A stretch of 64,000 nucleotides of DNA from Ectocarpus siliculosus (lineage: Eukaryota > Sar > Phaeophyceae > Ectocarpales > Ectocarpaceae): NCBI GenBank assembly GCA_000310025.1, contig FN649727.1, positions 7,131,727-7,195,726 of the forward strand, in the 5' to 3' direction. Shown here in pieces: positions 7,040 through 49,594 of the stretch. The notes beneath the pieces were generated by a model. It saw only the letters and a list, made by a program, of their open reading frames with translations, had not been told where the DNA came from and searched no databases. Made by a program: the position numbers and the translations under genes. Position 1 is the stretch's first letter. Every line of letters starts with the position of its first letter.

Positions 7040-7440
7040 ATGAATGGTGGTCGAGTAGATTATGTTGTGCGGGGTCGAGAACCCTCACTCCGCGCAAAGG
7101 GGATAATCGCACGTTGTGTTAAATTGGTCAAGCACCCTCGAGGCGGTTACACAGCGCTTCCAACTGTCTCTGGAAGTGAAAGCACCACAAAATAAATTAA
7201 GTCATACGCAGCTGTCATCTGTAAGCAAGGAAGTAAGCACAAGATGCCGAACACCCTTAGCAGGATGCGGCGCACCCTTCATGCGACTCGCCGAATACCT
7301 CACGGCGCTTCGCGCTTGGTGATGTGAGAGCCTGGTCCGGTGAGAACCCGGCGTGCTCCGTCCCGGCTTTGTAGGGATGCGAGGTCAATGGTCTAAGGAC
7401 TACGGCATGCCCGGATTAAGAGTCCCCCCCCCCCCCCCCG
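7031..7440 (+). mobile_element. solo LINE 3' end (about 410 bp), poly(C)-tailed
   Basis: This segment is the plus-strand counterpart of 37178-37600, which is the 3' UTR of the large LINE. Both carry GCGGTAACCAT, GGTGGTCGAGTAGAT, the stretch AATACCTCACGGCGCTTCGC and CCCGGCTTTGTAGGGATGC, and both end in GGTCAATGGTCTAA, GGCATGC and a long C run. By eye identity is high, with small indels. No coding sequence is kept, so it is a 5'-truncated retrocopy or a short element borrowing the LINE tail. Confidence 0.9.
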
Positions 7441-10400
7441 GCTTTTGAGGACCGAACCATAAAGGGCTCCTCACTCAATAGAAAAGATACTTGCCGGCCG
7501 TTACATGAGTACTGCTACTCTGACGGGGGAGGGGGGGGATCCGCGGACACAATAAAAGCTCCCCGCGCCGTGGCCATTCCTACCGAGTCGGACGTGCGAG
7601 CGATGGTCTGCATACATTGCCTGTAGGTGAAAAGAAAGAGCGAATTAAATGGCGCCCGAGTGGCCCTCAAGAAGGCGTGCCTCCGCTAGCGCACTTCTTG
7701 TCCACTGATAATCAGATGGGTGAACGCGCGCGTGTTGTCCACATAATGCATGCGCATGTGGATGCATGCGTGTATGTATGTGCATGGTGACCCGAATAGA
7801 TACAATTGTCGTAAACAACAACATATTGGCATGAGCATGAAGGTGGCGCCTGCTGTACCCAAGCGCACCAACATGACGACCCCTATGTAGGGGGAGCCTG
7901 TCTGTATGTAACACCTGTTTGCTTGCATGCGGTGTTTCGTGCTTACCAGTTTCTGGCGCAGTTGTGCGTGTGTGTGTGTGTGTGTGTTCGTCCTATTATA
8001 TATATTCTGGCGCCTGTTTACAGGCCCTTTCGTGACGTATCAGGTGGGGTCACACAAAAGGAAGGTCACACGGGAGCTTTCTTCATTCATTTGTTTGTTT
8101 TGTTGTTGTTTTGTTTGCTTTGTTCTGTTATGTTGACCCACTCTGTTCCCCCTGCTGCGGTGGAGGTGCAAAAAAGCGTATAGACATACAGCTAGCTTTT
8201 TCTGACTCTATGAATTCATTGCTAATCTGTCTCTGACTCTTTTCTATCATAGAGATGGATTCGTTGTGTCATGTTAAGAAAAAAAAAAAAGGTGAGTGGG
8301 TGATGTGATGTTTCCGTTGTTTCGGTCCCGCCGGTTGATTGCCTGCCACCGCAAGCATACAACATACAACAGATACGAGAGCGAAGAAGAGAGGTTACTT
8401 GCTGTTCCAGCACGGGCAGATTCCCCGGGGGGATGGATGCTGTCAAAGACCGCGGCCGTCGCTCTTTCCTGCTGGCCGTGACAACGTCTGGTGTGGAACA
8501 CGCGCGCGGCTCAGAGAAAGAGAATCTGCCGGGCCAACGTCTTGTGTTTCGTCGTATGCATACATACAGAAACGTACCGGCATGCAAAGCACTGTGATGT
8601 CTGCATGTAGACTGTATGGGAGCGCTCATTGTTGCGAACTTTTTTCCTGCACGCAAACCCCGCGCGAGGTACATTGTATCCATCTTCGGAACACGCCAGC
8701 AGTTATAGATACATTGTAATCGTCGCCGATGTGCACAGCACGCAGGGGGTGAACTCTGCAATATCGACTCTCTCCACGTCGTGTAGCTGGCGATTAGGCA
8801 CCGTGCGGGGAGCAAATACTCCGAGTTGCAGACGGAGAACTACTGCAGTATCCCAACCACTGGTAGATTGCATTTGAATATGAATATGTACACGAGTGTG
8901 CGTTGTTATCCCTACCGCAGCCCCCCACGTGCTGCTCGCAAACTTGTGTCATGGAGGGAGGCTACCAACCATGTTGCATGCCAGCGCAACGACTCGCACT
9001 CCGGGGCTCATGATTATGCTACTGACGGGTACAAGAAAGGCTTTTGTGGAGAGAGAGAGAGGACACAGCGCCTTGTACGCACACACTCACAGGGCGTGTC
9101 TTAACGCTCTAGACCAAACAGGGAACAGGAACAGGGAACTCGGAATTCCCTCGGTTCCCTGTTCCGTGTCGTTGTGTCTTAACATACACCTCATTTCCAG
9201 GGAACATTAAGGAATAATAAAAGGGAACATGGAAGACTTCAGCGCTCGCGTGCGGTCCGCATGTTCTCAAAGGTAACAGATACAACCATCGGATGCAGAA
9301 AGACGAGTGGGGGGTAGAGGAAGGAGGAGGTAGTGTAGGTTGCGAAAGAACCTGTTGACGAGCGCACATCAAATACATGTGCTAGGTATCGGCAGGAACA
9401 GGCAGTTCTCGTCATGCAATCCGCACCCTCGACAGCAGTGCTCTGGAAGGCTTGCTTTTGAGTTGTGGTCCGTTGCAGCTTGCCGATTCTTTGACACTTT
9501 ATGTTCCCTCATACAACGGCCTCGCGACCATCCGCCGCCGTTTTTTTTCCATGTGAGTCCAAGCGAGACACGTGATGATGGCGGCAATGCTTGTAAACTG
9601 CTTGAACTGGTAGCATGCAGCCTGTGGCAGCCACATGCCCGAGAGTGATCACACACATCCCACCACGTCCTGAATGCCACCGAAGAGCCCGTGTTCCACG
9701 TTCCCTATATGGTCTGTTGGCCAATTTTAATGAACTTATTCCTTACAATTTTTGTGCGGCGTAACTACCACAAATTCGGCTTCTTGAATCTTTCTGCGTA
9801 CCAGATCGTGTTCGGAACAGTTAATTGGCGACCTTCTCTTACTGACATCGTATGCTATTATACGCTGCCACCAACACTGCTAGCCGCAGCAGCAGCAACC
9901 CAACTCAGCAGGAACAAAGCAGCGCACCCTGAACGGGAAACCCCAAAATCGGTTCCTTCCCTCCCGCCGTGGCTCCTCCTTTAGCGGGCTTCTTGTTGCG
10001 CGCGCGGGTGTGTGGTTCTACATTTTTTTCCAACCTTTTTTTTCGGATTTCAAATATACTTTTTTCGTGACCCCGGCCGGCTTCGCTGCGTTTCGGCACA
10101 TTTCTTCGCGGTGGTCAGCCGCCGCGTACTTGATTGAGCCCGAGATTATGACGGGCGAAAATGCTTTGCCATTGCTTTTGGGAAAACACAGCAAAAAAAA
10201 ACGAAAAAAACATGTATTTCAGATTTGAACGGTCGTCGGGCTGGTGAAAAGCGCGGTGGTTGTGTGAGAAAAAGTCAATGGTGTGCCACGTCCAACAACT
10301 CATGCTGCCGCTGCTGTCACGGCGGTAGGATTGGGATGTGGCGGCTCAAGGAGTGCGCGCCCTTACGCATCACTATACAGCAGCACCTCCATAGATGCTT

Positions 10401-10758
10401 CATTTTTACGGAAATCCTTGAGAGATTTAACAGAATGCCGGTATGCCATACAGGGGGGGGAGACTGGACCTCTTGGTCTACAAAGTTTCTTCGTGATAAT
10501 CCCCCCGTCTTGGTGGTGGTATGCCACTGCACCCGCCGGAAGAGAGAGGCAGAAAAACGCACGTGCGGGAACAGAGATGAACCGCCGACAGCAGCGCTCG
10601 GTTTGCCTCGGGGAAAAACACACTCAGAGGCTGGGTGTCGCTAAAAAATCTGCCTGCGCATCATACACACGGAATGTGTGTAGTTCTCCCACCGCGCATC
10701 TCAATCTACACTGGCCTTTTTTTTAGCAAAAAACTGCTGTATACAGCTGCAGCTCCGT
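7441..10758. other. no supported gene; simple repeats
   Basis: I see no domain-bearing open frame on either strand. Features are a (GT)n tract (about 7966-7987), a short segment at 8249-8290 shared in inverted orientation with 29780-29816, and a hairpin at 9128-9165. A lysine/arginine-rich minus-strand open frame at 9905-10099 is noted but unsupported. Confidence 0.5.
9128..9165. repeat. 12-bp inverted repeat around a GAATTC core
   Basis: GGAACAGGGAAC (9128-9139) is mirrored by GTTCCCTGTTCC (9154-9165), with a 14-base spacer that contains the palindrome GAATTC. The single-stranded sequence could form a stable hairpin. No gene ends next to it, so a terminator role is not supported. Confidence 0.75.
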
Positions 10759-11180
10759 ATGTATCATCTCTCACCCTCGAGAACGCAGATCGAGGTTTTT
10801 GAAACCATGGATGTGAAGCAACAGCTCCACCGTGGCTCGAGCCCCCCCCCCATCCATCTCCACGCGGCGCTAGACGACCTCTCCCGACCAAGCTCACTCT
10901 CCCGCCCCTCGCTGCGGATCAACGGCCGTGGTGCTGCTGATGGTGGCACAGCAGGGATGTTGGCAGCAGTCGGAAGCCAGACACAGGGCACAGTCCAGAC
11001 TCCGCCGGCACCCCATAGTTGCACTTTTTCATATATTTCGCGTGCCCCCCTCCGGTTGCCGTTGTTGCCACCAAAGACTATGACTATAATAACCTTGGTT
11101 GCCACACACACACCGCAGCAGTGCAGTGGTATCTCTGCCCTGCTCAGCCATACATCACACCCCCACAACCCTTTCATCAC

Positions 11181-11600
11181 ATGGTGGACACGGCGCCGCA
11201 GGAACTGGACATGCCCGCGGGCGACGATCAGTCCGCGTGTGAGATTTGTGGCGGCAAGGAAGAAGGCGGCGGGTCTGCTGCTGCCGGTGACAGCAGTACT
11301 TCCGCTGACACCCAGCAGCAGCAGCAACGACAGGAGTCGTTTGCACTACGGTGCAACTGCTGCAGGCGCTGGTTCCACCCCTGGTGCATGGGCTACCAGC
11401 TGGACCTGGACCGGTCCTGCTTGATCACGGCGTCCGATGTGGATATCCCCATCGACTCCGTCACCGGCCTCCCCGTGGTGTGCCAGTGGTTCTGCGACTC
11501 ATGTTCCTCGACGGTCACCGGCGTCGTAGCCGCGACGGCCGGCAGGCGGCAGCAGCGGAGGTTGGCCGTTGCTGCTGGGTTGTCGACGCCAAAGAGGTAA
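11181..11600 (+). CDS. PHD-finger protein exon
   Basis: The frame from ATG 11181 (MVDTAPQELDMPAGDD) encodes an atypical PHD zinc finger of the C4HC3 type. The ligands in order are CEIC, then CNCC with the pattern C-x2-C, RRWFHPWC supplying the His and Cys, and WFCDSC at the end. A Gln/Ser-rich insert separates the first Cys pair from the second, and an Asp-rich insert precedes the last. PHD fingers usually read histone H3 tails, so a nuclear chromatin role is likely. The frame stays open upstream to 11019 and upstream exons are possible. At the 3' end the codons run to TAA at 11598-11600, but AAGAG before GTAAAG is a fair donor at 11596, so the protein may continue. Homopolymer G follows directly. 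Confidence 0.65.
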   Translation: MVDTAPQELDMPAGDDQSACEICGGKEEGGGSAAAGDSSTSADTQQQQQRQESFALRCNCCRRWFHPWCMGYQLDLDRSCLITASDVDIPIDSVTGLPVVCQWFCDSCSSTVTGVVAATAGRRQQRRLAVAAGLSTPKR

Positions 11601-14600
11601 AGGGGGGGGGGGGGGGGGGTGCTAAGCTGTTGTCACGGCAGCAGCAATGGCGTCGTGCGGAGTTTGTAGCCTAGATCGGGATCTGTGGTGCCACCCCTTC
11701 ACGTTGTTTGGGATTCGCCGAAAACTTGGATACATGGAAGAAGGAAGGACGCTCTGCGAACAACAATATAGTCCCACGCACTTCGATGGTGTCCTGCTAC
11801 TGCTGCGGTCGTTGTGTTTATTTTTGTTGCCGTGGTATGCATATGTTTTTCGTATAGTGTTTCATCTGTTGATGTAATGAGGGGCGACACGCGCACGTCG
11901 TTACCAGCAAATATTGAATCCGCTTGCTTCAGTCCCCAAATGCCTGAATCCGCGGTCGGACGTCGCACGCACGCAAGCTACAGCAGTAGTATATCTCCCA
12001 CCCGCCGATCTCACCGCACGCACGGCTTTGCCTGCTGCCTTGTGTTCTGCTCTCTTTGCGTGCGTGCAGTAAGAAGGGGAAAAAGGGAAAGCACGCACCC
12101 ACACGGAAGACAGAGCGATGACAACGGCTGGCGGAGAGCGGGGGAGAGGCGACGTTTTGATTTTGTTCTCTCGGCGATGGATCGGGCACATGCGCCGGAC
12201 TGGATTAATCCTCAGCCATGGGCAAGCAGCAGTTGTTTGCTTCACAAACCAAACCGGCCCGTAGGAAACACGAGGGGGGAGGGAGGGGGGGGGGGTCCGT
12301 GTTCTACTGTATCCTTAATTATTGGAGAAAAAAAAACACCGAAGACAAAAGGGGGTAATTCCCCGCTCCTTTTTATCTACGGCTCTCCGTGGCTGGGCGT
12401 TGAGCGGCGGCGAGCAAGACCACGGAAAACAGAACGCGATCGATCGAGAACCGAGGTAAGCGACTTTGTGGACGGCAGCTGCACCCCTGCTGGCCAATAC
12501 ACGTGGCAGAAGCTTACATAACAACGTGCACGTGCAGCGTATTTTGTTGTGAACACCTCCGTCTGCTTGTAGGTTCGGCGTTGGTATATGGACATGATGT
12601 CCTCACGGCAATCAGCTGCCGCTTCGTCATGAGCAACTAGCAACCAGCCGACGTACGAAAAACACCTTTACAAACTGATACATACGACCAGAGGGGATCC
12701 CGAATGTACTGAAGTTGCTGGATGTACTGAAGTATCAGTTTGTGAAGGCGCTTTCCCACCCCGCTGCTCGTGTGCTTTCTTCTCTGCTCTTCCTTCTCTT
12801 CAGTCTCGTTACCACGGAAGGCCGACGCTCACGCCTCGTACCATCAACCCGAGATAGAAAGACGGAGGGTGTCCAGCCGCAGCGGACAGAAAATTTGGTT
12901 ACGCACACGGGGGTCGCCGCATCTCTACCACGTCTCCACCCGCCTACCGCAGCAATGCCGCGTGAGCGCGTAGGCTATGTAGGCCGCGCCTTCCTTCACG
13001 GGTAGACCTTTGCTCACTCGCGCCGCCTATTTTTTTCTTCTCGGGTGTTGCGGAGGATGGCGGGAGCACCCCAGTGTTCCCTCACATCGTCGGGGGTGGT
13101 TGTTCTTTGGGTTCGCTGCATTCAGTGGATATTTGTTGGTAATGAAGTAAGCCTCGGACAAGAGGAGCGTTGTGTTTCAGGTCCTCTAGGTCTCTACTGC
13201 TGGGTGCATGTGGTTCTGTATAACTACGTAAGATACCTGTGTGCTGGGTTCCTCGCACTTATTGGTGTTCAGGTTGGCCGTGATTTGCTCTCGCGCCGGG
13301 GTTTACTCTTGTGAAGGAGACAAACCTGGCGTTGATGCCGCCGCGATGAAAGCGCGTGGCACAAACGCGTGAAAGACATGGGAGGTTGTCGAGGATTACC
13401 AGGTGTAAGCAAGTCCCTCTCCTGCCTTCGTACCGGAAGGAGGATGCTCTCCTCTCCTCGGCGTGTATACTTGTAGGCGTTAAGCCAAGAGTCGAGGTTT
13501 CCCCGGTTCAGGCGTTTCGTTTGGCGGCACTCGCTCTCCTCTCTTGTGCACATAAATAGCAGCGCCAGAAAGACATAAAAGTGCCCGTCCTATTGGCCGA
13601 AACGCCTTGGGTGTGGGGTGCCATCAGCCATGGTGTCTAGACGTGGCATTCTCCGTTGTATAAGGATCCGACCCAGCTTGGTGAAGGTGGTCACCACAAG
13701 AGTATCGAAACTGTACCTTGTCGGGGCGAGTTCGTATTATTAGCCGCTGCCTTTTGTATAACGGCGTGCTGTCGTGGTCATGTTGAGGGGAAGTTGCACG
13801 TATACATAGCCGGTCGTCGGTTGGCCCCGGGCGTGTGCTGTCGTGAGACTCTAGGGCGGGGAGGTCTGTTGCCTCGGTTGTGAAGTGGGCGTAACCTCAG
13901 GGCCTCCTTGACGGCTTCGGCGGGGAACTCGAGTCCCGGAGGAGGGGGGTGTCGGTGTTTCACGCCCAGGCCTCCTGTTGTTGTCAGGGCGCTTGTTCGG
14001 AAGTGCACTCGAAATAGAGAGGAACTGGAGAACCCTTCTGTGTTCAAAAATGAACACCCATGCATGTATATTGCTGAGAAAGTTTCTTCTGCGTGACCTG
14101 CGGATAGAAGCTGACCGGTTGAGGGGCGGCGAGACCGCGGGGTAGGAATAAAGTGCGGGCAATTGACGTGACACAAACATGGCAGCAAATAACACAAAGC
14201 CGGCCTTGCCAATTATGCAACCAGCGCGTGCAGTCCAGAGCCTGGGCGTTGGGATACATGCGCTCTTCCTGCGACCCTTCGGTGCCTTGCTGGTTCTGAA
14301 GCAGAAGCTGATAACTTTTTAGTCTCCGCTTGTTTGGGAGTAAATTTTCAGAGACCGAACAACAAATAGGAGGACATATACGAGATCCTCCGCTAATCGG
14401 TGCCGTGACCAGGCTGTTGGTTGCCAACATGCGTGCCAACATGCGTGTCACCCAGCGCTCCCCGGATGACTGTATGTGGCTGGCACCAACGGTGTATGAA
14501 GGCGTCGTCGACAGTGTATGGATGCGTTCCTCTCCCGAGTGCCACTCGCAGCATCAAAGATGGTCTTTCAATCGCGCTCACCTGTGTATTGAGTGTTGTG

Positions 14601-15597
14601 GGGGTGGACATCTTCCGTGCTGGCTGGTTGGCGGCATACACGCACGCAAGCGCAGAACCAGGCTTTTACGAACGACGCCCCGAAAGCAACTCGAACCCGG
14701 AGCCTAAGCACTTCTGTCTACTCTCCGCCGCCATGCCTTTCCGTGGAGACCCCAGTATCGGGAGGCGTATTTTTCCAACGGGGATCGACAGCCGTGTTCC
14801 TATGATAAGTGAGAGAACCTAGCGCGGGTTCCACGCTAATCGTGTTTTGGCCGTCCCGCATGTACTCGTCAAACTTGTTTATCTACAAGATGGATACGGT
14901 TCTGTCTGAAACAACGCTTGGACGTAAAACACGCTAGAAAATGTAACGCAAAACAATCGGTTCGGGTCATTCGAACGATTTTTGTTTGACACATCAAGTC
15001 CCGATTTCGTGGCGTCGATATCTCCTCCGGAATCGATTCCGCTTTGCCAGTTCAGGGGGGGGTATCGCCACTCAGAGTAGAGTTGGTCTGAGCAAAAGTG
15101 GCTGCACTCCAAGGCTGGAGAATTTCCAATCAATCGGGAAAGCTCCGGCGAGTCAAAAATATGGTGTTGGTTACGTTCTGAAAGAACGCCGCTGGCGCGG
15201 AAATAACAACTTTTTCACTTCTCCTGACTTCGGGAACATGAGAAGCATTGATACTTGTTGCATGCACATGACCGATGAAATACCAATTTTCTGACGATTT
15301 GGAGGGGAGGGGATTCTTGCAAACAATTCCCCGGGGGGCGGTTCTTCCCTCTTTTTTACCACCTGAATCTGGAATACATGAACATCACGATCGCCAACAT
15401 CAACAGTAAGCATACATGCGCACTTCACGCTCCTCAGCAAACGCTCATCATGCATGTTTTTTTACCTTGGGGGCTATCTTTTACCCCTTTCTAAAAGATA
15501 CAAGAAGACTAGACGCACGACTACCCCGGACCCGCCCTACGTACGTGTATCATCATCGCGCGGGCAGCACTACGTTCTTCGAACTGGCTGGTGCATT
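11601..15597. other. no supported gene
   Basis: Many short open frames exist, but none has a recognisable domain. The DNA is non-repetitive apart from homopolymer G/C runs (for example 11601-11618) and direct GTTGCTGGATGTACTGAAG-like duplications near 12710. The left half could hold further exons of the PHD gene. The right end is the downstream region of the ankyrin gene. Confidence 0.45.
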
Positions 15598-18500
15598 TCA
15601 GGCCAAGAGACCGGTGGAGCTGTCCGGCTCCACGTCCGGCATTTCCAGTTCCTCGCCAACGGCGACCGAGCTACCCTGCCTCTGCTTCCGCGCGGCTCGT
15701 AGAGTCTTGCTGATCTGCTTCTTCACCGCCTCTGCCACCGCCTCATCGTACCAACGACCTGCCAAGTAGCGGCGGGAATATTTAGCTGTTGTCGTGAGCA
15801 CGAAACGGGTTGGGGGGCAAGAAGAGCGCTCCTCGAATGGAAAGCAATGCTGTGTTTGTTTCCCGGGTCCTTTCCACATCCTTTAATTTTTCGAGCGTGT
15901 ACCGTTTTGGGATGTTTGGCAACACGCAGGGCGTCCTCGTCAGTTGGACCGGAAAACGGACGTCAGAAGGCACTGAGCTGAGTATTCAGCAACAACAACT
16001 CACCCGCAACGTGGCCGTCATCGTCGATGGCATTCGGGTTGGCACCCATGGCCAGCAGCTTCTCCACCGCCTCCACGTGCCCGAAGTAAGTGGCCAAGGT
16101 TAGAGGAGTATCGCCGGTGCTCGATCTGGTCTCGAGCGGCGCCTAACTCATCACCAAGCAAAGAACAGAAATGGGGAGAGGTGTAGCTACAGCATCCAGC
16201 ACCTAGAACCGTAGCCTAACTGATAGATCATAGATCATGAAGAAGGTAGATTCACATGCTAAAAGCGCGGGCTCGGCACATAATAGCTGCGTTTATCCCC
16301 CCAAAAGATCACGAAGGAGCACCTACCCCGGCCATGAGGAGCATGCGGACCAGGTCGACGTCGCCTCCCTCGGCGGCAAGGTGCAACGCCGACATGCGTC
16401 TGTTCGTCACCGCGCTTAGGTTCGCTCCGTTGGCAATCAGCAGGACCGCCAGGTCAAGCGTGCCGCACTGACAGGCAATCAACAGTGCCGTGTACCCCTG
16501 ACGTGATGGCAGTAGCATTTCGAAGGGGGGGGTGGGGGGCGAAGGGCTCCCTGAGGGCATGATGAGTAACCGTGCGCCCGCCAGATCAATGAAATGGAGC
16601 AGCAATTGGACCTATGGGGGAAACATGTGTGTTGCTGACGCCATACACACCCGTGCGAAGCGTGTTGTAGCTTCTATTGGGGGTTCGCACGGTGATTCCA
16701 GCCCCCCCCCCCCCCTTATCGTGTCGCCTGCAATCACCCGGAAAAAATTGTGGCTGACGGGGGCAGTGAAGGTTACCGTGGCGTTCGGGCGTGCGATCAG
16801 GGATCAGTAGCTTGCCGTCTCCTTCGGCGGCTGGAAACACACACTCGACCCTCTTCTCCGGGAATTGCCACAACGGGATCTGTACGTCACAAGAGTTCGC
16901 ACACAAATCGCTATGATGCAAGCGTCGCACACAATCCAGCCGGGAGGCGATACCGCTCACCTGGTCCGTCCGGGCTTCTACGTTGGCCTTGGTTGCTTTG
17001 GTTAAGAGCTCTTGAACCACCTGCAAATATTCATCGTTGGCTACACGTGATGAGCGAAGACGGAATGGAAAAAAGTGCTTCTCTCGTGCGACTAGGATGC
17101 CGTTTGCAATAGGGTCGTCAAACGGAAGTATGCGTGCTCTTGGTCTGTTGGATACTACCCGGGTCTGGTGAGTTACACTGGCGCACGTACACTGGGGTAC
17201 GCAGCATTTGCACCGCCGCCCTATCCCTGGAGAAGCCGCCGAAACGTACCAATCCCTTGGACAACAACTCTAGTAGTCTCAAACGCTGCGCTCATGCTCG
17301 TCACGAACCTCCCACCATGTGCGACTTCGGTCTGTGCAGAAACATCGCCGAGACAGCTGGGCCTCAACCACACTTGACGGATTATGTCGCGACTCGTTGG
17401 TATCGGGCCCCTGAGATTTTGCTAGGGTCGCCTCGCTACACGAAAGGAGTCGACATGTGGGCGGTTGGGTGCATTCTGGGAGAAATGTTGAGTGGCAGGC
17501 CAACTTTTCCTGGGACTTCCACGATGAATCAGGTGTGACAACGCAGTGCTGCGTAGACAAATAAATATCGATGCTGTGTAGGTTCATGCTGTTGGGCCCC
17601 TCCGGTACGTGCCTCTCTTTTAGTTTCAGCGACTGCCAAGCATGTATTACCAATCGGTGGGTATCGCCTCAAACTTCTAAGCTGACGATAATGTGTTGGG
17701 GGCTCCAATTCAACATGGTCCATTTGGCGCGTCTTGTTTTCTGCTGGCATCAACCGTCCCAGCTGGAAAAAATAATGGAATCTACCGGACGGCCTTCACC
17801 GGAGGATGTCCAGTCCATCAAATCTCCGTTCGCCGGGACCATGCTCGAATCCATCCCACCAACCCGACAAATATCCTTGAACGAGGTTTTTTCTAGCGCG
17901 TCGGCGCAGGCTCTGGACTTGATGTCCCAGTGCCTGCAATTCAACCCCGACAAGGGCGTCCGTGCTGCTGACGCGCTCAAGCACCCGTACGTTGCCGAGT
18001 TTCACAACCCAGACGACGAGCCCGACTACCCACACGGGGCAATTCAGGTAGGGGTTTCTGACGCGGGAACAACGCCTATCAACATATTAGTCGGCACGGA
18101 ACGCCCTGAACCTGTTGACGCCGCGAAATAGTTCATTTGTACTGATATTCGTTCGCGGTCTGTAGACTATTGCTGAGGTTGGGTGTACGCACCTCCGTCA
18201 CTTTCATGGCTCTTTGGCGCTGATAATAAAATTAACGTAACATTTCCCTCGTTCCCTCGCTCCGTGTGCAGATTACTATCGACAAGGGTGTTGTCGACGA
18301 CAACACCAAGTTGTCTGCTGCTGACTATCGAGAAATGCTTTACAAAGACATCAACAACAGGCGAAAGGAGGCTCGTCGCGCGGAACAAGCTCGACAATCA
18401 TCCGGGCGTGCCACGGCCCCTGTTAACGAGAAGACAGCGTGAACACTTATTACGCGAAAGGCTCGTCTAATTTTGAGATTGGTTGCCCCTTTGCACCATG

Positions 18501-20623
18501 TTGTACACAAAAGTTCAACGTTGGAACAAAGGCATTGCATGTTCAGCGTGGAAATGGAAATTGTGATGATTTCGGTCCGTGCAACCTGAGTTCCTGCCAA
18601 CTGCCCGCACAGTCCGGGGTTGCGGAGTGTTGAGGGTGAGGAAGACGGGGGAAATGTGTAGTGGAGCTCCTACTTGACGGAACGATGATGTTTCGTGTGC
18701 CCTGGTTCTAGAAATATCGAATACCTGTATACTCCATGGTGTTAGACGAAAGCAATGGAACAAAAACAAATTGGCGCTCGATGATCATGTCAACAGAACG
18801 ACTTGGAACCTGTGTCCCCCCCGGCTCCCGCCCCGACCCCACCCCCACGGTATCATGCCATCAACCCAGCGCACCACGCTTCTCTCTTCAAACCCCTTCG
18901 CGGCCACGACATGACACACGGAGGAGTTCCACGAGAACTTAACTTTCTCTATCGATCGTGCTCAGTACAACGTAGTCGAGATGAACATATATCCGTGTTG
19001 TATGCACGAACATACCTCTCGGTGTTGGTTCTGGCAAGCGATGAGCAGCGACGTGAACGACCGGTCGTTCTTGGCCTCCACCGCCGCACCCCCCGCACGG
19101 AGCTCCCGAACCGCGTCCAGGTGCCCCCCTTTCGACGCCAGGAGCAGAGGGGTGAAGGCTCTGTCGCTCCGAGCCTCGATATTCGCGCCCCCTTCGAGAA
19201 GCTGACGGGTGGGAGGGGAGTCGTGCGTGCGCAGGAAAAAAAGGGGGGTGGGGGGGTGGGGGGGCGTACTCATGGTTTTGAAAGCCTTAGCGGTTAGAAG
19301 GGGGGGGGGAATCGTTCGTTTTGTAATGAAGGGCCGTGGTCTGAGGATCAAAGACGTCCTCACCCGGAGCAAGGAGGGAGGGGTGGAGATATTATCGTTC
19401 GGAATGTCTGCCGACGGTGCGTATCTTGCATGCTCGAAAGAGACAGTCGGGCGGGATGGGTGCCGGAACGGCGGTGGAGGGGGAATAAGGGCTCCACATC
19501 GTGGTATGCTTGGTTTGCGCTGCTTGCGAGTAGGCTGTTGGCGCTCCGACGAAACATGTCTTTGGTTCTCGGTACACGTGCCCGTCGTCTGGCTTCATGC
19601 GTTGACGTAGGGTAGTAGCCCCCAATTCGATATACTTTGACGGCCCACAACTAAACGTGTCCCGTCATATCTTTCACGTGTTGTTGCGTTTTCAGTCGAG
19701 GAAGGTCTTCCGGCCATGGCTGTTCGTCACGGAATGATAGCATCGTTTTGTATACGGGCTGGTGCTGCAAGAAATGAGCTTCTAGTCACGCACGCAGACC
19801 ACGAGAGTTTCTCCTCACGTACGAAATGTCTCGCCAGCAGGAACGGATCACACCAACTGCTTAATAAGCGACGACGCAACGGCAAAAATGTTCCTTTTCG
19901 TCCGCGTGCTTTCCTTTCTAAAAAAATGGCAGTACTTAGGGTCTTCTGATGTGTGCGTCCATACAACAGCAAAATAAGTTTTTTTCTTCCTGCCAGCCAG
20001 ACTAGTCATCACACACATGACACACACATATACATATGTGGTCTTGCGTGTGCGTCTTTCTCTACGACCGATCGATGTCTTCTAGAGTTGGTCAGCTTGG
20101 TCACAGCTAGCTGCGATCGACAGCGCAACAAAGAAAATTACGTTCTTCACCTCGGCTATGCAGTCCGCGCGGCCGCACTGGGCGGCCAGCAGCAGCGGCG
20201 AGAAGCTCCGCTCGAGGAGCTCTTCCTTGTCTACGCCCGGCCTCGTCAGCAGCTCCCGCACCTCCGACGACGACCCTCGGTGAATCGCCATGTGAAGCGG
20301 ACCCCACGCTTTCGTCGTGGCACCCCCGGACACCACCTGCGAAACAACCTGCGGGGTGGACGATCGCCTGTACCTGGTGGGGTTTCGGGGGAGAGGAGGG
20401 GGGGGAGGGCTGAAGTTCAGTTGCTTGGCCCTGATTGGACCACTGATTCGTTCCGATTTTCGCAGCTCATGAGGCTGTTTAGAGGTGGGGGAAGCAGCAC
20501 ACCCCCTTTTCGAAACAACTTCCCCAAGTAGTTATCCGACCACGCGCCTTGTATTGCATCGCTGCACCATGTGCTCGTCGTTCTGCGCACAATTTCCCTT
20601 TGTCTCAATGTTGGAGATCGGCA

Positions 20624-20656
<33 letters not shown>

Positions 20657-23600
20657 CAAGGACTCGCTGTACACAGAGGCGAGTCTCCCGAGCCGTCGAT
20701 ATCTCTACCTGGTGTCAACAGCCGAGGATCCTGCCGTACGGTCCTCGATAGTCGTAGTGTCCGACGGTTTCGCCTTAGCTCGCTCGAGCTGCTCCGTCGC
20801 TTCCTCTCCCCAAAGCAAGACCTTTTCTCATCGAGGGGATGGAGCGATTGCCCCAAGGGAATAGAACGCGATTGGGTTTGTGTGGCCAGAGGAGTGGACG
20901 GCGAAGGAGGGCCTCGCTTTTAGTTTTGTCGCCCGCCACCCTCGACAACATTAAAGTCTCTTGGCCCCAACATGGTGTATGCGTGTGCAATCAGAGTTAT
21001 ACGTATGTAAGTCAACGAACGATAAGGGAAGAAGGATGGTTGATTCCCTGCTTTGTAGTGGCAGATCAGTGTGGGTCACAACGGTCACGACACTCATGCA
21101 GCGAAACCGAGTCTTTTCTCCTTACATAATACCCCATGAAAATCAATTCCGGGAGAACAGTCTCCCACAAACACCCCCGCCCCCACCACCTGAAGAATAT
21201 TTGGGGGTTACTCGCTATCTGTGACCTGTCGTCATCTAGACCACGTACTCAACTCACCTGGATCTGACGCCGGGTAGCAGGGCCCACCTCCGCTTCGAAC
21301 ACCTCCCCCGGCGCCGATCCCTCGTGGTCGCGGCCCTGCACGTCCGCCCCGCGACGCACCAGCTCCGCCACCGCGCCAGGCCTACCGAAGAACGAGGACA
21401 GGCTCAGCGCCGTGTCGCCGGTCTCTTGCACGGCGTCCAGGTCGGCCCCTGTCCCCGAACCGGATCCGTCGCCGCCGCCGAACCGTTAACGAGAAGATGT
21501 ATCGCAAAAGCGGGGAAGGGAGCAGGATATTGCAAAATTAGCCTCATCCGTCGGTCTACCCCTCCTGATCCTCCCCCTCCTCTTTGATTTCCTCGATTTC
21601 CTCGAAGTTCTTTTCTTTGGGAATATTGGATTCCGCACACAGGCATCTCTAGGCCAACTGGCCGGGCAAGCCTGATGCTGCTCGAGTTGAGACACCCATA
21701 CGTTCAAGTGTGGAGAAGTGAAGTTAGAGAGGAACCGCCCCTTGCGCGGCTCTTCCTGGTAAGCAGTGTCTTTTTTTTTGGGGGGGGGGGTCGATTCGTT
21801 GCCGATTGTTTCGTTGTTAACCATTTTGCGCGCTGGGAGGAAGGGAGCCAGGGGCGGGGCGGGAATACTCGTTTCTTGCTGCCCTACCAGGCGGGACGTT
21901 TTCATCATCATGCACGCCCCCATCCATTCTGGGGGGGGGGAGCACCGAACCGACGCTTCGTTCGTTCACACCGGGCCGCTGGAATTTTGCTTGGGAGCCT
22001 CTTGATAGCTTGCGTGGTGGGTGAGTATACACTACTGCTAGCAGGTTCAAGAAAGCAACTTCTCGCGTGCAGAGAGCAGCATGTAGGAATACATACCCCT
22101 GTCGAGCAAGTCCGTGAGCAGCTCGTGCTGCCCGTACATAGCGGCGAGCATGAGAGGCGTGAAGCCGCGGTTTGTTGCGGTGTTAGTCCGAGACCCGGTC
22201 TTCAAAAGCTCCGCCGCGAGAGCACCGTGCGCGTGCTGTGCAGCCGTCAACAGTGCACTAAATCCGGGTACGTTTCGACATTTCGTTTGGGAGAGAGTAG
22301 ACGGGGGAGGGTTCACAATGCTATTTGGGTTAACGCTATTTGGGTTAGGGATATTTCCTAGTGGTGTTGTGGCCGCAAGCAGCGAGTGGAGAAGAGAGGA
22401 AGGGCGCCTGTTGCAGCAACAAGAGATGTGGAATAGATATTGCAGTATCGAGACCCCTAAAGCACGTAGTACCCGCGTGGTCACCAGAGGAACGGCGAGC
22501 CATGCAACGGTCCAATTACCAAATAACTCTAATAGCGCGACACAACGAAGCGCAGCATTGCAACCCTTCTGCTATCTTGGCGCAACTTTTCCCACAGCCT
22601 CAGAGGAAGCGCGACGTCCGCTCCTAACCCCACTACCTCCTTCACAAGAGTGACATTGATGGTTTCAAAAGAGGCATGTGTTGTCATACGAAAAAAAAAG
22701 CGGCTAAACAAGCGTTTCGAAGGGGCACGGCCATGAAATTGTGCGCAACTCACGTCGCAGCCCTCTCACGCATATACGCAGTGGTACCACACTGCTGTTG
22801 TGGCACGACAACCAAAGACGCCCCCACCTCACTGCCGCTTTACTTCATCCCAACTCTGTACCACTCGCGAGGGGAACAGGTGCACACGCGCACTTTGACC
22901 CGGCGTGTTCGACGTCTTGTCGACTTGCCCCCCCCCTTCTCTCTGGGGGGAAAAATCTCCCCGGAACCAATTAACTCGTCCCATCGATCGACGGGGGGCA
23001 AGGGCAAAGGCGCAATAGCGCATGGTGGTAGTACTCGCCTGAAACCCTGGGCGTTTGACGCCTCGAGGTCGGCTCCTCCGGCGATGATGAGCTTCACCGT
23101 GTCCAGGTGGCCCCGCTCGCACGCGAGGAGCAGAGGCGTGCTCCCGGTGGTTGTTGCGGCGTGGGGGTAGGCGCCTCGATCTAGGAGCATCTGCGCGCGC
23201 GCGCGTGTGCTGTTAATATCAGCATCGACCGCACTAACTGGTTGACCGCAGTTAGTGCCATCGCATGTGTGCGTGATACGTGTCGTCCTTGCATTTGTGT
23301 ACACGCAGACGTGGTGAGTGCAGGCATTTCTTGAGCTATGTACGGTAGACCGGCCGCGCTTGCTTGGTCACCCGCGTTGAAGAAAAGTTAACTTTGTCCT
23401 TCTCCCCCTAAAGCGGGGTCGGGCGTCGTCATGCCGAGTACGTCCAGGATGCGTACGTCAAAAACGAACGGATCACATGCGAGCGCTTCGCGGACAACCG
23501 AAGGCGTGTGTTCTACCTCTAATGTCGATTGAGTGAGCAGACACAGGTTGAACAGACGGAGCAGATGGGACGGGAGAGAAAGGGCGAGGGGCTACGCAGG

Positions 23601-26600
23601 CTCGGTTTGTCTTCACAACCTGGTACATACCACCACACACCGAAATTCGCCGTAGTGTTGCTTGCCGGAACCAACTCCCGATGATTGTGCGCGACGGTTT
23701 CGATTAAATCGTGTCATCAAGCGAAGTTTACGGGGTTTCGAGGCAGGTCCGGCCCGACCCTCCTTTCGCTTCATTTACTTCTACACAGAGTAGATATGTT
23801 TGTTTTGTTACATATGGGTTTGTGGCTTACCTGGTAGGTTGTCGTGTGCCCCCCCTCCGCCGCCCGGAGAAGAGCCGTGAAACCTCTGTCGTTGGCTACG
23901 TTCACGTCAGCCTGTTTGTTTGAGTCAGTGAAAGCCAACCAGATGGCACACAGGTGAAGAGGACGCGAGCATAAGAAACGACAACAGGGCGGGGAGAATA
24001 CCGCGTTAGCCTTGTCGAGTGTTGTCGGCGTGTAGCTTTGCCCTCTCAGGAGGGGCGCGAACGGTTACATGGCGAAGATGCCGGTCTGCACATGTATGGA
24101 ACGACAGTACACGTGTTTCTGTCGTTTTTGCTCAGTCGGTGCGAGCGTGATGTTTGCGTAGCAAGAGCAAAGGCGGTATGCCTGGGGGAGGCGGACAGTG
24201 ACGTACAACAACCTCGTATCGGAGGCATGCCAAGCGTGTTAGAGGTAAAGCACGCGCATAACGATAGAGGCGGGTTACACAGTGCCGGTAAAGGCGGGGC
24301 AAGCGCAACATGCGCACACGGGAAACTTAGGAACCCGGACCGACTGGGCGCGCAACACAGGCAATCACTTCCTGGAAAAAAACAAATCTAGATGCAAGTT
24401 TGACTGGCACCATCTCTTTAGCGCTCGCCGAGTGCGTGCATCGTTAACAACACGCGCTTTGCTGACCACCTCTCCCCGGAAAACAACGGGGGGTGGGAGA
24501 AAACTGGCGTTGACGGAGCTCACCAGCATCCACGGAGTCGCGCCCAACAATAGGGAGTCATGCACTGGTTTACGGCTTGCTTACCCCTGCGTCTAGGAGG
24601 AGAACAGCGACCTCGTCGCGCCCATACTTGGCGGCGAGAGCCACCGCAGACTCTCTCTCGCTGTTCACAACGGCCGCGTCAGCCTTGGCCTGGAGGAGCA
24701 GGGCGACCACATCGCCATGTCCCTTTTGTTTGGCCGGGGGTTGGGGGGCGGAGCGGTCGCGCGCGCGGGGCGGGGGGGGCGGTGATGAGGGTGATACTTA
24801 CCCCCGTCAGGACGCAATGTAAGCCGTTTCCGTGGTATGCATACATGCGCGAGGGTTAAATCGTTTCCCCGCGGTTGTTCCGGGTACAAACCACGACACA
24901 CGGTGTGTTCCGGATACAACCCAATGGATTGCCGTGAAAATCTTCGTGGTATTGGGTTCTCTCGCAACGGAAGGTCCCTGGAATCGAAACGACAACCTTC
25001 GTGCTGTGAAGCCTCTGAAGGAGGGCGTATCCGCCCCGAGCAGCTAGATTTCTTCCCTAACATCCGCCCGTTGTGGGGGAAATCGACCGTGTGCTTCTTG
25101 CCTCGTCGCATCCTCTTGGGTGGGGTGGGGCAAGTCAAGGAGGTGTGTGCCAATCTACGAGAACCCCAAGTTTCCAAGGTTAGGCTCGGTGAGGTAAGGG
25201 TACGTTTGGTTCGCAGTGTGCGGGAAGTCGTACCAAGCGTACCAAAGAGTTTGACAAGGTAAACGCTGGGGATGTGTACCCTCGAAGACGTAGGTACATA
25301 CCGAACCTACCTTGCGAGTTTACTTCTATTTCTCTCGAGAAATCGGAAGAACTCTCTGAGACACTCAATTCTCCAGCATTTTTTTCCACGCTTTTGTGAA
25401 GACCCTCTTCATAAGGGTGCAATCTCCCCTCCTGTGAGAACGTTTTCCTCTTTTTCGCACTTTCCCCGGCAGTTTTATTGCCTCAAATGACACACACACA
25501 GTTGTGCTCACCTCGCGCGAGGCGTGCATGAGCGGAGTGTTCCCGCGGTGGTCCCTCGACTCTATCTCGGCGCCGGCAACCACGAGCATGCCCGCCACGT
25601 GAGCCCTGCCGTAGTCGCTCGCGAGGGCCAGCGGGGTGCAACCTCTGTCGTTACGCGCCTGCAGCAACGGTTTGAGGCGAGTCGGTCGCGCAGAAAGGGC
25701 GCAGCCGACGATGACGACTGAATAATGTGCGGAGGAATACGTGCTGCTTTGTGGAAGACGCTGCTGCTGTGCTTTGCGAACCTGCGCCGCACGCGATGGG
25801 AAGAAGATGTTCTTCAGCAAGAAACGGGGGAATGGATGCCCTTTCCGGGGTAGTGTTTTAGAGAACGTGGTAAAGAGTGCGTGCACCTCGTCATTACATC
25901 GAGGGAGTAGCTGGAAGGCGCAGAAATGAATGGGAGTTTGCTGCCGACACCCCCATGAAAAACGCCTGGTAAAAACCCTTCGCCTGTCGTCCCGTTTTCA
26001 AGTGTGATGGCCAAGGTTCTCCGCTCTCAACCGTTGGTTACCGTATTCTCCGGACACTTCCTCCCGAAGAGAGGGTGGTACTCACTTTCGGCCAATCACC
26101 CATACCCGGCGGGGGGGGCGGGGGCGGTGTATGGTAATTTCTCCGGGGAAGAATGTTCTTGGCGAAGGGAATAGGCAGGAGGTAAAAGGCCAACACGCAC
26201 ACTCACACCCGGATGTTACGTGGCGGTGTTGCGTCTTCGGTTGTTTGCGATGCGGAGGCCGGGTGTAATGTTTGCGGTCGTGCCAGAAGGCCAGCCTTGC
26301 TGCTTGCGCGCTGTTGTCGCCTTCTACGTTAATGGTCGTTCGGTCGCTACGCTGTCAACCTTATGTGTGAAACCTTATGTTTGACAATGATCAACACCGA
26401 GTGATAGTTTTGCCGAAATACCCCGTTGATTTGGTTGGCAAGATGGTCTTCGCATCTTCTGTGTCTATTCTAGTGTGGCGTTCGACTCACACAGTCCTTG
26501 TAGGGAACACGGAACAGAAAAGAAAGGCTAGAGCAGCAGTACATGTAGCCGAGATGGTCGCGGTTGGTACAGCTGATAATTGTGCAAAACCAACAGGACA

Positions 26601-28515
26601 GCAGTGCTGCGACTGCTGTACAGAAGCTTTCGCTGTGAGAACAGCGACAAACAACCACCACACAAACAACAGCGACAGTGTTTCCACTTGTTGTGCCACA
26701 ACTCACTCGCTGCTTGTTCTTTCCGCACGACAACGAACTCGCGGTGCCGTGCAAACGCGGACGGCGTATTTCACCTCGACTAACGCTCTCGATGCGTCCT
26801 GGATGCTCAACTGATTGAGAACGTTCTTTGCGATGAACCAAAGCCGAGGTTGATTAATTACGCAAAAATAAACGTGCGAAAAATTCGAGACAAGGGGGGA
26901 TACGCACTTGTTTTTGCGACGAATTCCCCAAGGAAGGTGTCATGTTTTCTCCCACTCTTGGCCGGGTGATTTTTTGTGGGGAGTGGGGCGGGGCAACCAA
27001 CGGACATTGAGGGGTTCACTCTTGCCTTATACACGCCTTTCGTTTCCAAATACGATGCTCGTCCCGCGTTTGCTTCGTTGGCACTAACTGCATAGACATC
27101 CCACCTCCAAGCTAGCCCCGGCCCTGAGCAGAAGCTGCACCTCGGGTGCTCTTCCCTCGTGCGCGGCTACCATGAGAGGGGAAAGTTTGGTGTTCGTCCT
27201 GGCTTCGATGTTCGCGCCGCTGTGTGGTGGCGGGGTCCGGCGGGCGACGACGGCGAGAAATAAAAGGGATTTTGAATGAGTTCACAACTAAGTACGTGTG
27301 TGACGAGAGAATTGAGGTACTCAAACGTTGTCAAGTCGATAAATCAAAACAACGCTTGACGATACCACGAGGCACATTACGTTTACTCTCGACCCGCCCG
27401 TGTACCAGCCAGGCCCAATCGATTGACTCTCGGAGCTACTATAAGCGGTCTCTCAAACTGGGCATGAACTCCTTTTTTTTGTTCGGTGCCAATAGAACTA
27501 CGCCTCCCGAAGGGGGTGGGTAGTAAGATGCTTCGGGCCTAAACGATACCCGAAACTCTCGGCAGACTACGACACGTGGCTTCCATACGTCTGGTATCTC
27601 GTTGTGGGCCGGCCGAGCACAAACAGTGTACCACACTACAGAGCACGGTTTGACATATCACCCACCGCACGAAGAGAGTTGCGAGCTGAACAACGCGTGT
27701 GAGACCATTTATTGTCACTTGTCGCATGCCCTCTCTGCGACGTATAGAACCAAGCGTGGAATCCAGCTCAGGATGACGTGCGGCAGCGGGGGGGGGGATT
27801 CAATGTGGTCTGTAGAAAGCGCACCTGTCCAGAAGGAACCCCACTATGTCGGCATGTCCTTGCTGCGCGGCAATAGTCAAGGAGGTGTAGCTCTGCTTGT
27901 TCCTGGCTTCCACGTTGGCTCCCGCAGCCACGAGGCACTTGGAGAGGCCGAGCTTGCCGTTGAAGACAGCGATCAGGAGCGGCGTGAACAGCTGGTCGGT
28001 TGTGCTCTCAAGGTTCGCTCCGGCCTTGAGGAGAACGCGGGCCGCCTGCCGTTAGTTGTTCCGTTCGTTTCGCGAAGGGAAATCGGAGAGTGGTCATTGT
28101 TGCTCGCTCTTCCCCGACGAGCTTGGGGATAGGTTGTGTGGTCCTACCGTCATACGATGCCATAGACCGCTCTTCGTAGTGGCATCCCGGCTTAACCCTT
28201 AACGCTCTACCTTGTGAAAGACCGGTTGCCTATACTCACTTTCATGTGTCCGCACTCCTCGAAATGTTCGAGATCCTCGACGTGTTCGTTGGGAACCGAC
28301 CGCAACACCGGGCAGACCATGTTATTGTGACAACCGCAGCTACAGCAGAGGAGGAGAGGGTTATATTGACCCTCCACTTCGCTCTCAAGTTTCGCTCCTG
28401 CGGACACGAGGACCTCGACCACTCGGTTCTGGCCGGCATGACACGCAGTGTGAAGCAGGGTCCACATGGTGTCCTTGTTCCTGGCATCCACGTGCCCTCC
28501 ATTCCGTAAGAATTT
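15598..28515 (-). CDS. large ankyrin-repeat protein, 15 exons resolved (5' end not found)
   Basis: Fifteen minus-strand exons join in phase with GT-AG (one GC-AG) junctions into 803 codons: 28515-28240, 28045-27825, 27219-27105, 25658-25512, 24722-24585, 23911-23831, 23190-23039, 22257-22097, 21448-21258, 20336-20151, 19201-19016, 17020-16961, 16497-16327, 16142-16004 and 15785-15598 (TGA). The product is about 22-24 ankyrin repeats (for example [20 protein letters not shown] and [20 protein letters not shown]), many spanning exon junctions without a gap, which strongly supports the model. It ends in a non-ankyrin tail containing [16 protein letters not shown] and an acidic C-terminus. No membrane segment or signal peptide is seen in this part. 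Ankyrin stacks bind proteins, so an intracellular scaffold role is inferred. The first resolved exon begins in phase 0 after a CAACACAG acceptor, so at least one upstream exon with the start codon is missing. Confidence 0.9.
17317..18442 (+). CDS. ERK7/8 (MAPK15)-like MAP kinase, 5'-truncated, nested in an ankyrin-gene intron
   Basis: Three exons join in phase: 17317-17532, 17763-18047 and 18272-18442 (TGA), giving 223 codons from the first in-frame ATG. They encode CDFGLCRN (the DFG motif), the activation loop with [33 protein letters not shown], then [28 protein letters not shown] and [14 protein letters not shown]. The last exon adds the post-kinase segment with [16 protein letters not shown], which is characteristic of ERK7/8. 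TDY replaces the animal TEY. The N-lobe (glycine loop, VAIK lysine, helix-C Glu) and the HRDxKPxN catalytic loop are absent, and I found no exon for them within the enclosing ankyrin intron (17021-19015) or upstream to 10 kb. The product cannot be an active kinase as annotated; it is probably a partial duplicate or pseudogene whose retained frame is intact. Confidence 0.85.
19252..19302 (-). repeat. LINE 3'-tail fragment, minus orientation
   Basis: Read on the minus strand, this gives CTAACCGCTAAGG, then CATGAGTACGCCCC and more Cs, the same tail module seen at 2513-2642 and 47270-47409. It lies in the ankyrin-gene intron, next to the acceptor of the exon ending at 19201. Only about 50 bases remain. 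Confidence 0.6.
20626..20656 (+). repeat. (CTG)10 microsatellite
   Basis: About ten uninterrupted CTG units lie in the ankyrin-gene intron between the exons at 20151-20336 and 21258-21448. It is a plain trinucleotide tract with no sign of being translated. Confidence 0.9.
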
Positions 28516-31190
28516 CTGTGTTGTTTTTAGGTGGCATACATAGGGTCGGGAAGTGAGGAAATAATTTTGGGTCCCACTGTTCCCATGAGGGACTTATTAT
28601 GTTGATCTGTTTCGACCTTACTTAATGTTTGTGCCGATGACCTCCGGGAACGCTCGTTCATGTCATACACACAATGCACACACAACACTTTCTAGGCGTG
28701 GGCCAAATGATGATGTTTGGAGTGTCGGCGCTTGTCTTTATTATTGTACCGAGCTCGCGGGCCTTTGTCGAGAGCGCCATGCACAGAAGAAGGATGAAGT
28801 GATTCAAGTTCCTGATCATGGTACCAATCTAACGAGTGAGAGACATGGGCGAGGCAAGGAAAGCCTCGCACGTCGTGTCGTCCATCATCATTCCCTAACA
28901 CCCAAGTACTCCCTGGAGATCTCGTAGATCAGTACTTGCTCCACCAAGTAAATTCATTGAAAATACTAAGAGAAAGTAATCTACTCCGTCCGGAGAGTGT
29001 ATGTAGACGAAAACAATGATAGTTGTTCTTCACTTCTTACGTCGTAGTTACATTTTTCTTCTGTCTTTTATCCGGAGAGTATCGCTTAGCCTCACCAATG
29101 ACGCCTTCTCACGGAGCCCCAGATCATAGCCGTAAGAGCATTGTGTGTTTTCAACCGCACTGAGACTGACAAATTTTCCATGCTCAGCCGGTTAGCGCGG
29201 TTGGTGCGAATAGTAAAGACAGAAACACCCTGGATCTACGATTGATGGGACGATTTCGGATATTATTCACCTTGATCGATGCTGATTTCCCCGCAGCAGC
29301 ATCTGGCCACAGCTTGGGCGGTTTATTGCCCGAGCTCCCGGAAGTAAGCTCATGTTCACGCCGGCCTAGCAGCGAGCGACGCCTAGACCAGAATCTCGTC
29401 ATGGAAAGCTGCTCCCGGTTCTTAGCGTACAATACAAGCTGGGCTGTGCGTTTGTTTGTTTGTCGTGCAGGAGAAGGATTCGTCGGTGGTACTGTGAATT
29501 TACTACAGTTTCAACGTGTGTGCGTCGCACAAGCTGGCAGCAGTAATAGAGTCACAACGTCGGGTAGACACGGAGATCACGATGATACCACGGCGTCTTC
29601 CATCCCCTTCACTTCCAGGAAGGTCTGGTTGGGATTTCACGGGGCCTCTCTGTGTGCTCCGCTACAAAAAGAAAGGTACTCCGGAGTACATACAAGCGGC
29701 ATATGCATACTTGTACACGAGTACGACAAGCGGCATATGCATGTAGCTGAACTTTTTTTTTATTATTATTAATGTTTTTTTTTTTTCTCTTAATATGACA
29801 CAACGAATCCATCTCTTTCCTGTTTGCCCGATACGACAATACGACGGTTCGCCGCATGTTGAACCGGCACTTCGCTTCTCTGGCGCCGCGTTGTGGCAGA
29901 AGAGCAAACAAGCACTAGGAAATGGTTGTATTGCGATGAGCGCGTCCATAATGCGTGCCATGAATGATGGATCGCTGTGGTACCTGCGTCCGCAATGTCG
30001 ACAGCCAACACGGCCGGTAATTACGGTCCAATGTCATGGTACAGAGATTGCACTTCTGGCACGACCCGCTGATGGTCAGCTTCGTTCTACACTGAAGAGT
30101 ATATAAGTAGCATACAGCTACGTAGGCGTGGCTCCGACAGAATGGTCCCTTGCAAGAGGGGGCTCCGATAGAAGAGGGTCGAAATCGATTGTCAAGGACT
30201 CGACCCGCAAAAGTTGTTGGGGCCCCGCCATTCCGGTGTAGTAAGCCTCCGATATAAAAGAGGGTCGAGGGCCTTTTCGTCATTCCACCTTGTATTCGGA
30301 ACCACGACTGCAACCTAATCGGTAAAATTAGACCATCCGACTAGTCAGAGATTGTCTAATTTTATCTAATGCAACCCACCAAATTTTTCAGCTGGCGTGG
30401 AAAGCGTTTTCAATCTGGTTTGTGTTCTCGTCCTCGTCTTGACATTGAACAATCCGTTCGGCGGTTCCTGCTCAGCCAGCGGTCTATCTTATGTCCGTTC
30501 CGGTCCAACACACTGATGCATGCGCCTTCCGAGGTCTGACGGTATCACCCAACAAGGGGACTGGATAGTCAAGTGGTTCCAGTAGACCGCAAAGGGTTCA
30601 CCAGTGCTCAACACAAACCAACGGTGCGCAAGGCTCTTGGCGGCATCAGATTTGAGAGTACTTTCTCTCGCCGACCTCTGCGTACGACAACAGAACTTTG
30701 CAACAACGATGCAGTATTTTCCATCCGGCACAACACACCGAATCGAGATCCTATTCAAAAGCATGCCATATGCCCGCAGATCACGACTGAATCGGGAAAA
30801 AAAAATTACTAACCCTAACCCTACAACAACGAACAACAACCAAAATTCTAACCACCTCCGGATCGAACAAGACCGTAGTAAAAAATAACAAGTGACAAGA
30901 GCGGAACAACACAAAAAAGTCTGCAATACGTGTACAAGCACGAATAAACGCAGCCCGAAACTACTCGAGCGTTGCTGTGAAGCCCCCCCCCCCAACCCCG
31001 ACGACCGGTCGACGGAGGAAGGCTCCGAGTCTGGTGTTCGGCGCATTTTTATGCGCCCGCGGCCATCGGGAGTAGTTCATGCACCGCACGACGGTTACGG
31101 TTGTCAATATCAAAATCCATGATCGTTGCAATAGTTTCGCCCGCCCGCCCCTCCATGCAGAGGAGCAACAGCGCGTGGCGGTCTGCCCGT
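28516..31190. other. no resolved gene; likely 5' region of the ankyrin gene
   Basis: The missing first exon(s) and promoter of the ankyrin gene should lie here, but no minus-strand segment satisfies both phase 0 and a donor convincingly. It contains the repeat shared with 8249-8290 (29780-29816), three related CTCCGA motifs (30130-30270), a hairpin (30323-30364), and a short CTAACCCTAACCCTA at 30809-30824. From about 30757 it resembles 52559-52594, marking the start of the duplicated block. Confidence 0.5.
30323..30364. repeat. 11-bp perfect inverted repeat
   Basis: TAAAATTAGAC (30323-30333) and GTCTAATTTTA (30354-30364) are perfect inverted arms with a 20-base spacer holding ACTAGT. It is AT-rich unlike its surroundings. 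It may be a small fold-back or a remnant of a MITE; no target-site duplication is obvious. Confidence 0.7.

Positions 31191-49553: not shown

Positions 49554-49594
<41 letters not shown>

Follow-up and report, generated by a model that had tools for sequence, protein, structure and literature searches.

A 5'-truncated ERK7/MAPK15 fragment, probably a partial gene duplicate, lying antisense in an ankyrin-gene intron of Ectocarpus siliculosus

How does the back half of a protein kinase gene come to lie in an intron of an ankyrin-repeat gene, on the opposite strand, and does it do anything there? The question is raised by a 64,000-nucleotide stretch of the brown alga Ectocarpus siliculosus (contig FN649727.1, positions 7,131,727 to 7,195,726; the whole stretch is called the window here and is numbered from its first letter). 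The kinase belongs to the ERK7/MAPK15 branch of the mitogen-activated protein kinases (MAPKs), a family described as controlling cilium formation and as universally conserved in that role (PMC10425847). From the fragment, its introns, its orientation and the host intron, all of which can be read directly, we infer a duplication event and a parent gene: with a probability of roughly three in four, the element is a 5'-truncated partial duplicate, made at the DNA level, of the 3' half of an ERK7/MAPK15 gene, most likely functionless.

Kinase exons within an ankyrin-gene intron

The kinase fragment consists of three exons on the plus strand, and the host of five ankyrin exons on the minus strand, as follows.

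17317-17532, plus strand: kinase exon 1, 72 codons from MCDFGL to GTSTMNQ, with the activation-loop TDY, APE and DMW motifs and the donor GTGTGA (from translation, phmmer and splice context)
17533-17762, plus strand: kinase intron 1, 230 bp, GT-AG
17763-18047, plus strand: kinase exon 2, 95 codons from LEKIMESTG to GAIQ, including NPDKGVRA with Gly at the subdomain XI Arg position
18048-18271, plus strand: kinase intron 2, 224 bp, GT-AG
18272-18442, plus strand: kinase exon 3, with an ERK7-type tail and the stop TGA (from phmmer, splice context and tblastn)
20151-20336, minus strand: host ankyrin exon, further upstream, ending in CIAE; its 5' boundary is one choice among AG sites
19016-19201, minus strand: host ankyrin exon upstream of the intron, from LLEGGAN to QNQHRE
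17021-19015, minus strand: host intron, 1995 bp, holding the kinase fragment in the opposite orientation
16961-17020, minus strand: host ankyrin exon downstream of the intron, 60 bases
16327-16497, minus strand: host ankyrin exon, ending in LLMAG
15963-16142, minus strand: host ankyrin exon, whose end is either a stop or an alternative GTGAGT donor near 16003

The three kinase exons joined in phase into 223 codons followed by TGA, with no internal stop, and both introns were of phase 0 with GT-AG ends, which upheld the first-pass annotation in its description of three opposite-strand exons with an intact frame and good splice sites. In a tblastn search of the window, the exons were recovered at E values of 4.7e-33, 1.7e-31 and 2.9e-5 with the ERK7 protein encoded on contig L001 (JAIYDP010000293.1). 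That contig carries a complete seven-exon eukaryotic ERK7 gene at 4438-5724, the one confirmed relative among 21 pattern matches in genome contigs; it is filed as a Verrucomicrobiaceae metagenome-assembled genome, in whose bin it is an apparent eukaryotic contaminant.

Among the best 60 of the 1064 PDB sequences matched by phmmer, the first was 6v6a (E 5.6e-73, query residues 2-204) and the second 3oz6 (E 7.2e-59), followed by ERK1/2- and ERK5-type chains at 2.1e-44 to 6.1e-43. The PDB tables label 6v6a and 3oz6 simply as mitogen-activated protein kinase; we take them to be Toxoplasma ERK7 and a Cryptosporidium kinase, respectively. Identity over aligned positions was 122/197 (62%) with L001 ERK7, 120/196 (61%) with 6v6a and 110/194 with 3oz6, and stood at 86/189 with human MAPK15, 76/156 (49%) with human ERK2 and 68/161 with MPS1. 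The fragment combines the TDY form of the TxY activation motif with three MAPK C-lobe motifs, as expected of ERK7/MAPK15, and carries the ERK7-type C-terminal extension DDNTKxSxxxYR, aligned to 6v6a, 3oz6 and L001. Judged by its sequence, the fragment is the back half of a gene for ERK7/MAPK15, a cilium-related kinase, truncated at its 5' end.

The host exons at 20336-20151, 19201-19016, 17020-16961, 16497-16327 and 16142-15963 join in phase by reading, and the spliced 260-residue chain contained six Ank stretches (PF00023, E 2.6e-43). Joining 19201-19016 to 17020-16961 gave an Ank repeat of 23.4 bits (PF00023, cut-off 21.1), and reading through into the intron gave one subthreshold match (Ank_3, 13.7 bits, cut-off 22.3). 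Leaving the 60-base exon out of the join also scored well (PF00023, 64.1 bits, three stretches), so that exon was placed by its half-repeat and phase and not by score alone; by reading, its omission loses the second half of a repeat. Since splicing completes an ankyrin repeat that is otherwise incomplete, 17021-19015 is an intron so far as can be read from the letters, as the first pass had proposed, and the exons at 19 kb and 17 kb, which might have belonged to separate genes, appear to form one repeat across it. On its sequence, then, an intron of a minus-strand ankyrin gene encloses the whole kinase fragment, which is antisense to its host, the position of a nested gene. Further minus-strand ankyrin exons were seen upstream of the host exons, at about 21260-28530, which suggests one very long gene or a tandem array; the exon at about 21260-21450 may be a terminal one or may have a GTGAGT donor as its end.

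The first pass also suggested an antisense regulator; in that case, transcribing the fragment would interfere with the ankyrin pre-mRNA. Transcriptional interference between nested genes is on record (PMC3192792), and beyond orientation nothing at this locus spoke positively for it. A functional antisense RNA would need no intact kinase frame, and we regard such a role as very improbable.

The missing 5' half

Homology to ERK7 begins abruptly at (M)CDFGL, codon 17317, and similarity to one gene that stops abruptly within that gene is what marks a partial duplicate. The Pfam Pkinase profile was matched (E 8.4e-25) over positions 139-263 of 263 alone, leaving 1-138 unmatched. In L001, where the gene is complete, the hinge is separated from CDFGL by about 57 residues, and the elements that they comprise (alpha-D, alpha-E and the catalytic loop with its HRD, the last two expected in any ERK7/MAPK15) are all gone from the fragment. 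The earlier description of a C-lobe with an ERK7/8-specific tail thus holds for the tail, and the remainder is less than a whole C-lobe. Lacking the ATP site, the catalytic loop and some of the C-lobe core, the fragment cannot, on this reasoning, be a working kinase; the loss of alpha-D, alpha-E and the catalytic loop leaves the C-lobe core incomplete, so a stable fold of the product would be unlikely.

No N-lobe (glycine loop, VAIK lysine or alpha-C glutamate) was found by tblastn in the 64-kb window. Among the matches listed, the best N-lobe row with the L001 query had an E value of 0.04, lay on the reverse strand, was 22% identical and contained a stop; the best rows with other queries reached 0.082 (full-length human MAPK15) and 0.62 (ERK2 N-lobe). 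To gauge sensitivity, N-lobe exons 22, 73, 43 and 14 residues long were planted in 30 trials each, and a hit at E 0.04 or better counted as recovery. At 62% identity they were recovered in 27, 30, 30 and 5 of 30 trials, respectively, at 50% in 11, 30, 28 and 0, and at 40% in 4, 28, 25 and 0. By these rates, the two larger N-lobe exons (73 and 43 residues) are very probably absent from the window.

Six-frame Pfam scans (plus strand, 10000-17400 and 17400-27300; minus strand, 7000-16400, 15800-25700 and 25000-34900) likewise revealed no N-lobe, a weak test for split exons, as the same type of scan caught part of exon 1 and missed exons 2 and 3, so the absence of the N-lobe rests on tblastn. No similarity to the catalytic loop was found in the 300 bp 5' of CDFGL (score 19, against a mean of 23.1 for shuffles preserving base counts only, 473 of 500 of which scored at least as high). 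A decayed catalytic loop in this position, suggested by a row of the ERK2 tblastn search, was therefore rejected, its score not exceeding that of the shuffles. The proposal that the N-lobe and catalytic loop are missing was borne out by these searches together with the Pfam span, and upstream kinase exons, which would have contradicted a truncation, were sought in the window by tblastn and not found.

These searches also bear on whether the exons might belong to a complete ERK7 gene whose upstream exons are far off or were lost by misassembly, the ankyrin exons then lying inside a very long kinase intron. The frame and splice signals do look alive, and the bases before TGCGACTTC (CCTCCCACCATG) resemble the end of an intron with TG where AG is expected. 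As it stands, however, there is no AG acceptor immediately 5' of CDFGL, N-lobe exons were found neither in the 17.3 kb upstream nor elsewhere in the window, and the sole run of N is distant, at 35320-35419; a complete gene is quite improbable. Under a partial duplication, the same bases may mean that the breakpoint fell within a parental intron whose AG is now TG. A third possibility, that the fragment is a unitary pseudogene, the relic of the organism's only ERK7 broken by rearrangement and not duplicated, fits with the lack of an intact ERK7 copy in the window; the ankyrin gene would, however, have had to form around the relic, which makes this most improbable.

Origin and state of the fragment

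We propose that genomic DNA with the last three exons of an ERK7 gene, introns included, was copied or moved in antisense orientation into the ankyrin intron. A processed retrocopy would have lost its introns; those of 230 and 224 bp are present, so the fragment is not a plain processed retrocopy. Its location in an intron would leave the host mRNA unaffected, because the fragment is removed by splicing, and any product would be kinase-dead and probably unstable. The frame would have been kept through the youth of the copy or through slow mutation.

The subdomain XI Arg, present in 6 of 6 other aligned MAPKs and expected of an ERK7/MAPK15, is Gly in the fragment (R136G). In leave-one-out comparisons of five ERK7 sequences, 74 columns were invariant among the four others, and the fragment deviated at 9 of them; the corresponding counts were 5/70 for L001, 2/67 for 6v6a, 4/69 for 3oz6 and 22/87 for human MAPK15. 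Over all seven aligned MAPKs they were 4/50 for the fragment, 1/47 each for L001, 6v6a and 3oz6, 4/50 for human MAPK15, 3/49 for ERK2 and 4/50 for MPS1. The Arg-to-Gly change and the deviations hint at relaxed constraint, but may instead reflect change along the lineage. Exon 3 has a five-residue insertion relative to its relatives, overlapping a palindromic stretch, a perfect inverted repeat at 18287-18307 with 10-base arms and 1 base between them.

Several observations weigh against the partial-duplicate reading. The deviation totals are not decisive, as functional kinases cover the same range: human MAPK15, itself functional, deviates more among the ERK7s and, like MPS1, as much as the fragment among the seven MAPKs. 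Frame and all four splice sites have stayed whole, a state that a neutral copy keeps only while it is young: in a simple neutral-decay simulation (substitutions taken as uniform, indels at a tenth of their rate, 75% of indels frame-breaking), the probability of an intact frame was 0.47 at 1% divergence, 0.22 at 2%, 0.11 at 3% and 0.02 at 5%. The copy should thus be young, or have been retained during part of its history. Neither intron shares its position with any intron of the L001 ERK7 gene, so that a parental origin of the introns, although likely, is not proved. In the host intron, 11 families of short direct repeats and 6 inverted pairs gave no convincing insertion footprint, and nothing in it matches other DNA of the window over 60 bp or more; tblastn detected no full-length parent ERK7 within the 64 kb. 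Lastly, an upstream exon of 14 residues, or a diverged one of 22, could have escaped detection.

The intact frame and splice sites also favor another possibility, that the fragment was retained and is expressed as a short, kinase-dead protein made from the ATG at 17317, which would act as a decoy or dominant negative, competing with full-length ERK7 for partners. This ATG, correctly read by the first pass as the codon before CDFGL, lies in a CCACC context and is the first in-frame ATG after the upstream stop, and partial kinase duplicates with expression of their own do exist, e.g., Hun, derived from Ballchen in Drosophila (PMC3449122). On the other side, a C-lobe without alpha-D, alpha-E and the catalytic loop would be unlikely to fold, and the subdomain XI Arg is lost. 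The ATG, moreover, falls on a position held by V, I or L in relatives (ATG TGC GAC TTC in the window versus GTG TGC GAC TTC in L001), so it may be an inherited parental codon or a chance one rather than an evolved start. A decoy of this kind is unlikely. For the fuller form of this idea, an expressed and selected ERK7-derived protein that acts as a decoy in flagellum formation, its expression tied antisense to the ankyrin gene, we see a very small chance; were the fragment to prove expressed and under constraint, the ERK7 family would gain a natural fragment without kinase activity.

The partial duplicate in a host intron, as first proposed, fits the evidence, and the element is probably a pseudogene fragment that is either young or decaying slowly. 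For annotation it carries a warning, as gene predictors may label it a MAP kinase despite its having neither ATP site nor catalytic loop.

Neighboring features and comparison with known systems

Elsewhere in the window, 49081-52046 and 59310-62783 form a gene-scale direct duplication (pieces 76 to 91% identical). Its long open frames, rich in His, Pro and Gly, measure 527 and 706 codons from stop to stop and have a common N-terminal stretch (MTECVTNK..., VAQGLAPKHLLEGK). Minus-strand CAP/PR-1-like frames at 31593-32633 and 53607-54649 are related (pieces 80 to 84% identical); Pfam, which covered the 31- to 32-kb copy, matched CAP at about 31650-31775 (23.8 bits, cut-off 21.1). A WSC domain match on the minus strand at about 33056-33205 fell just under its cut-off (25.4 bits, cut-off 27.8), and a weak PHD-finger match on the plus strand at about 11325-11411 (12.7 bits, cut-off 24, E 0.14) lies in the open frame 11019-11597. 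Two pairs of inverted copies, 7028-7438 with 37182-37598 (419 aligned bp, 90%) and 34978-35170 with 35481-35677 (197 aligned bp, 97%), are probably pieces of mobile elements; between the two copies of the second pair lies the 100-N gap at 35320-35419. Scans of the window with Rfam (gathering threshold) and for tRNAs gave no matches. In viral contigs, a search with the single protein yielded no close relatives, and a search by alignment gave 23 pattern matches, 0 of them confirmed; phage records contained no match.

Among the publications listed on brown-algal MAPK/ERK7 or on nested genes, none describes this case in its title or the start of its abstract. The kind of element is nevertheless well known, partial gene duplicates and intronic genes on the opposite strand both being familiar. 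According to PMC3449122, partial duplicates are frequent in multicellular eukaryotes and made up 76% of the duplications segregating in 15 Drosophila melanogaster lines. Like them, the fragment would be a truncated copy that came from a single ancestral gene and took up a new place; it differs in its setting, antisense inside a host intron. Hun is, like the fragment, a partial copy of a kinase gene, but it recruited about 33 flanking residues and is expressed specifically in the testis (same source), whereas the fragment shows no recruited exon.

HvARM1 of barley, derived from the E3 ligase gene HvPUB15, is likewise a partial copy of an enzyme gene (PMC6092874). It is, however, described as a single-domain armadillo gene whose effect on mildew resistance has been tested, whereas the fragment keeps no whole kinase domain or lobe. 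In position, the fragment resembles 2mit in Drosophila tim2, a protein-coding sequence antisense in a host intron; intronic genes amount to about 6% of D. melanogaster genes, and 2mit, unlike the truncated copy read here, is a gene for which a role in behavior has been reported (PMC3786989 for both). As a few partial copies, such as HvARM1 and Hun, are described as having gained roles or expression, a function of the fragment is by analogy possible, and nothing at this locus favors one. Set beside these cases, the Ectocarpus fragment appears to be a clean instance of a host intron sheltering a truncated, though unusually intact, kinase copy.

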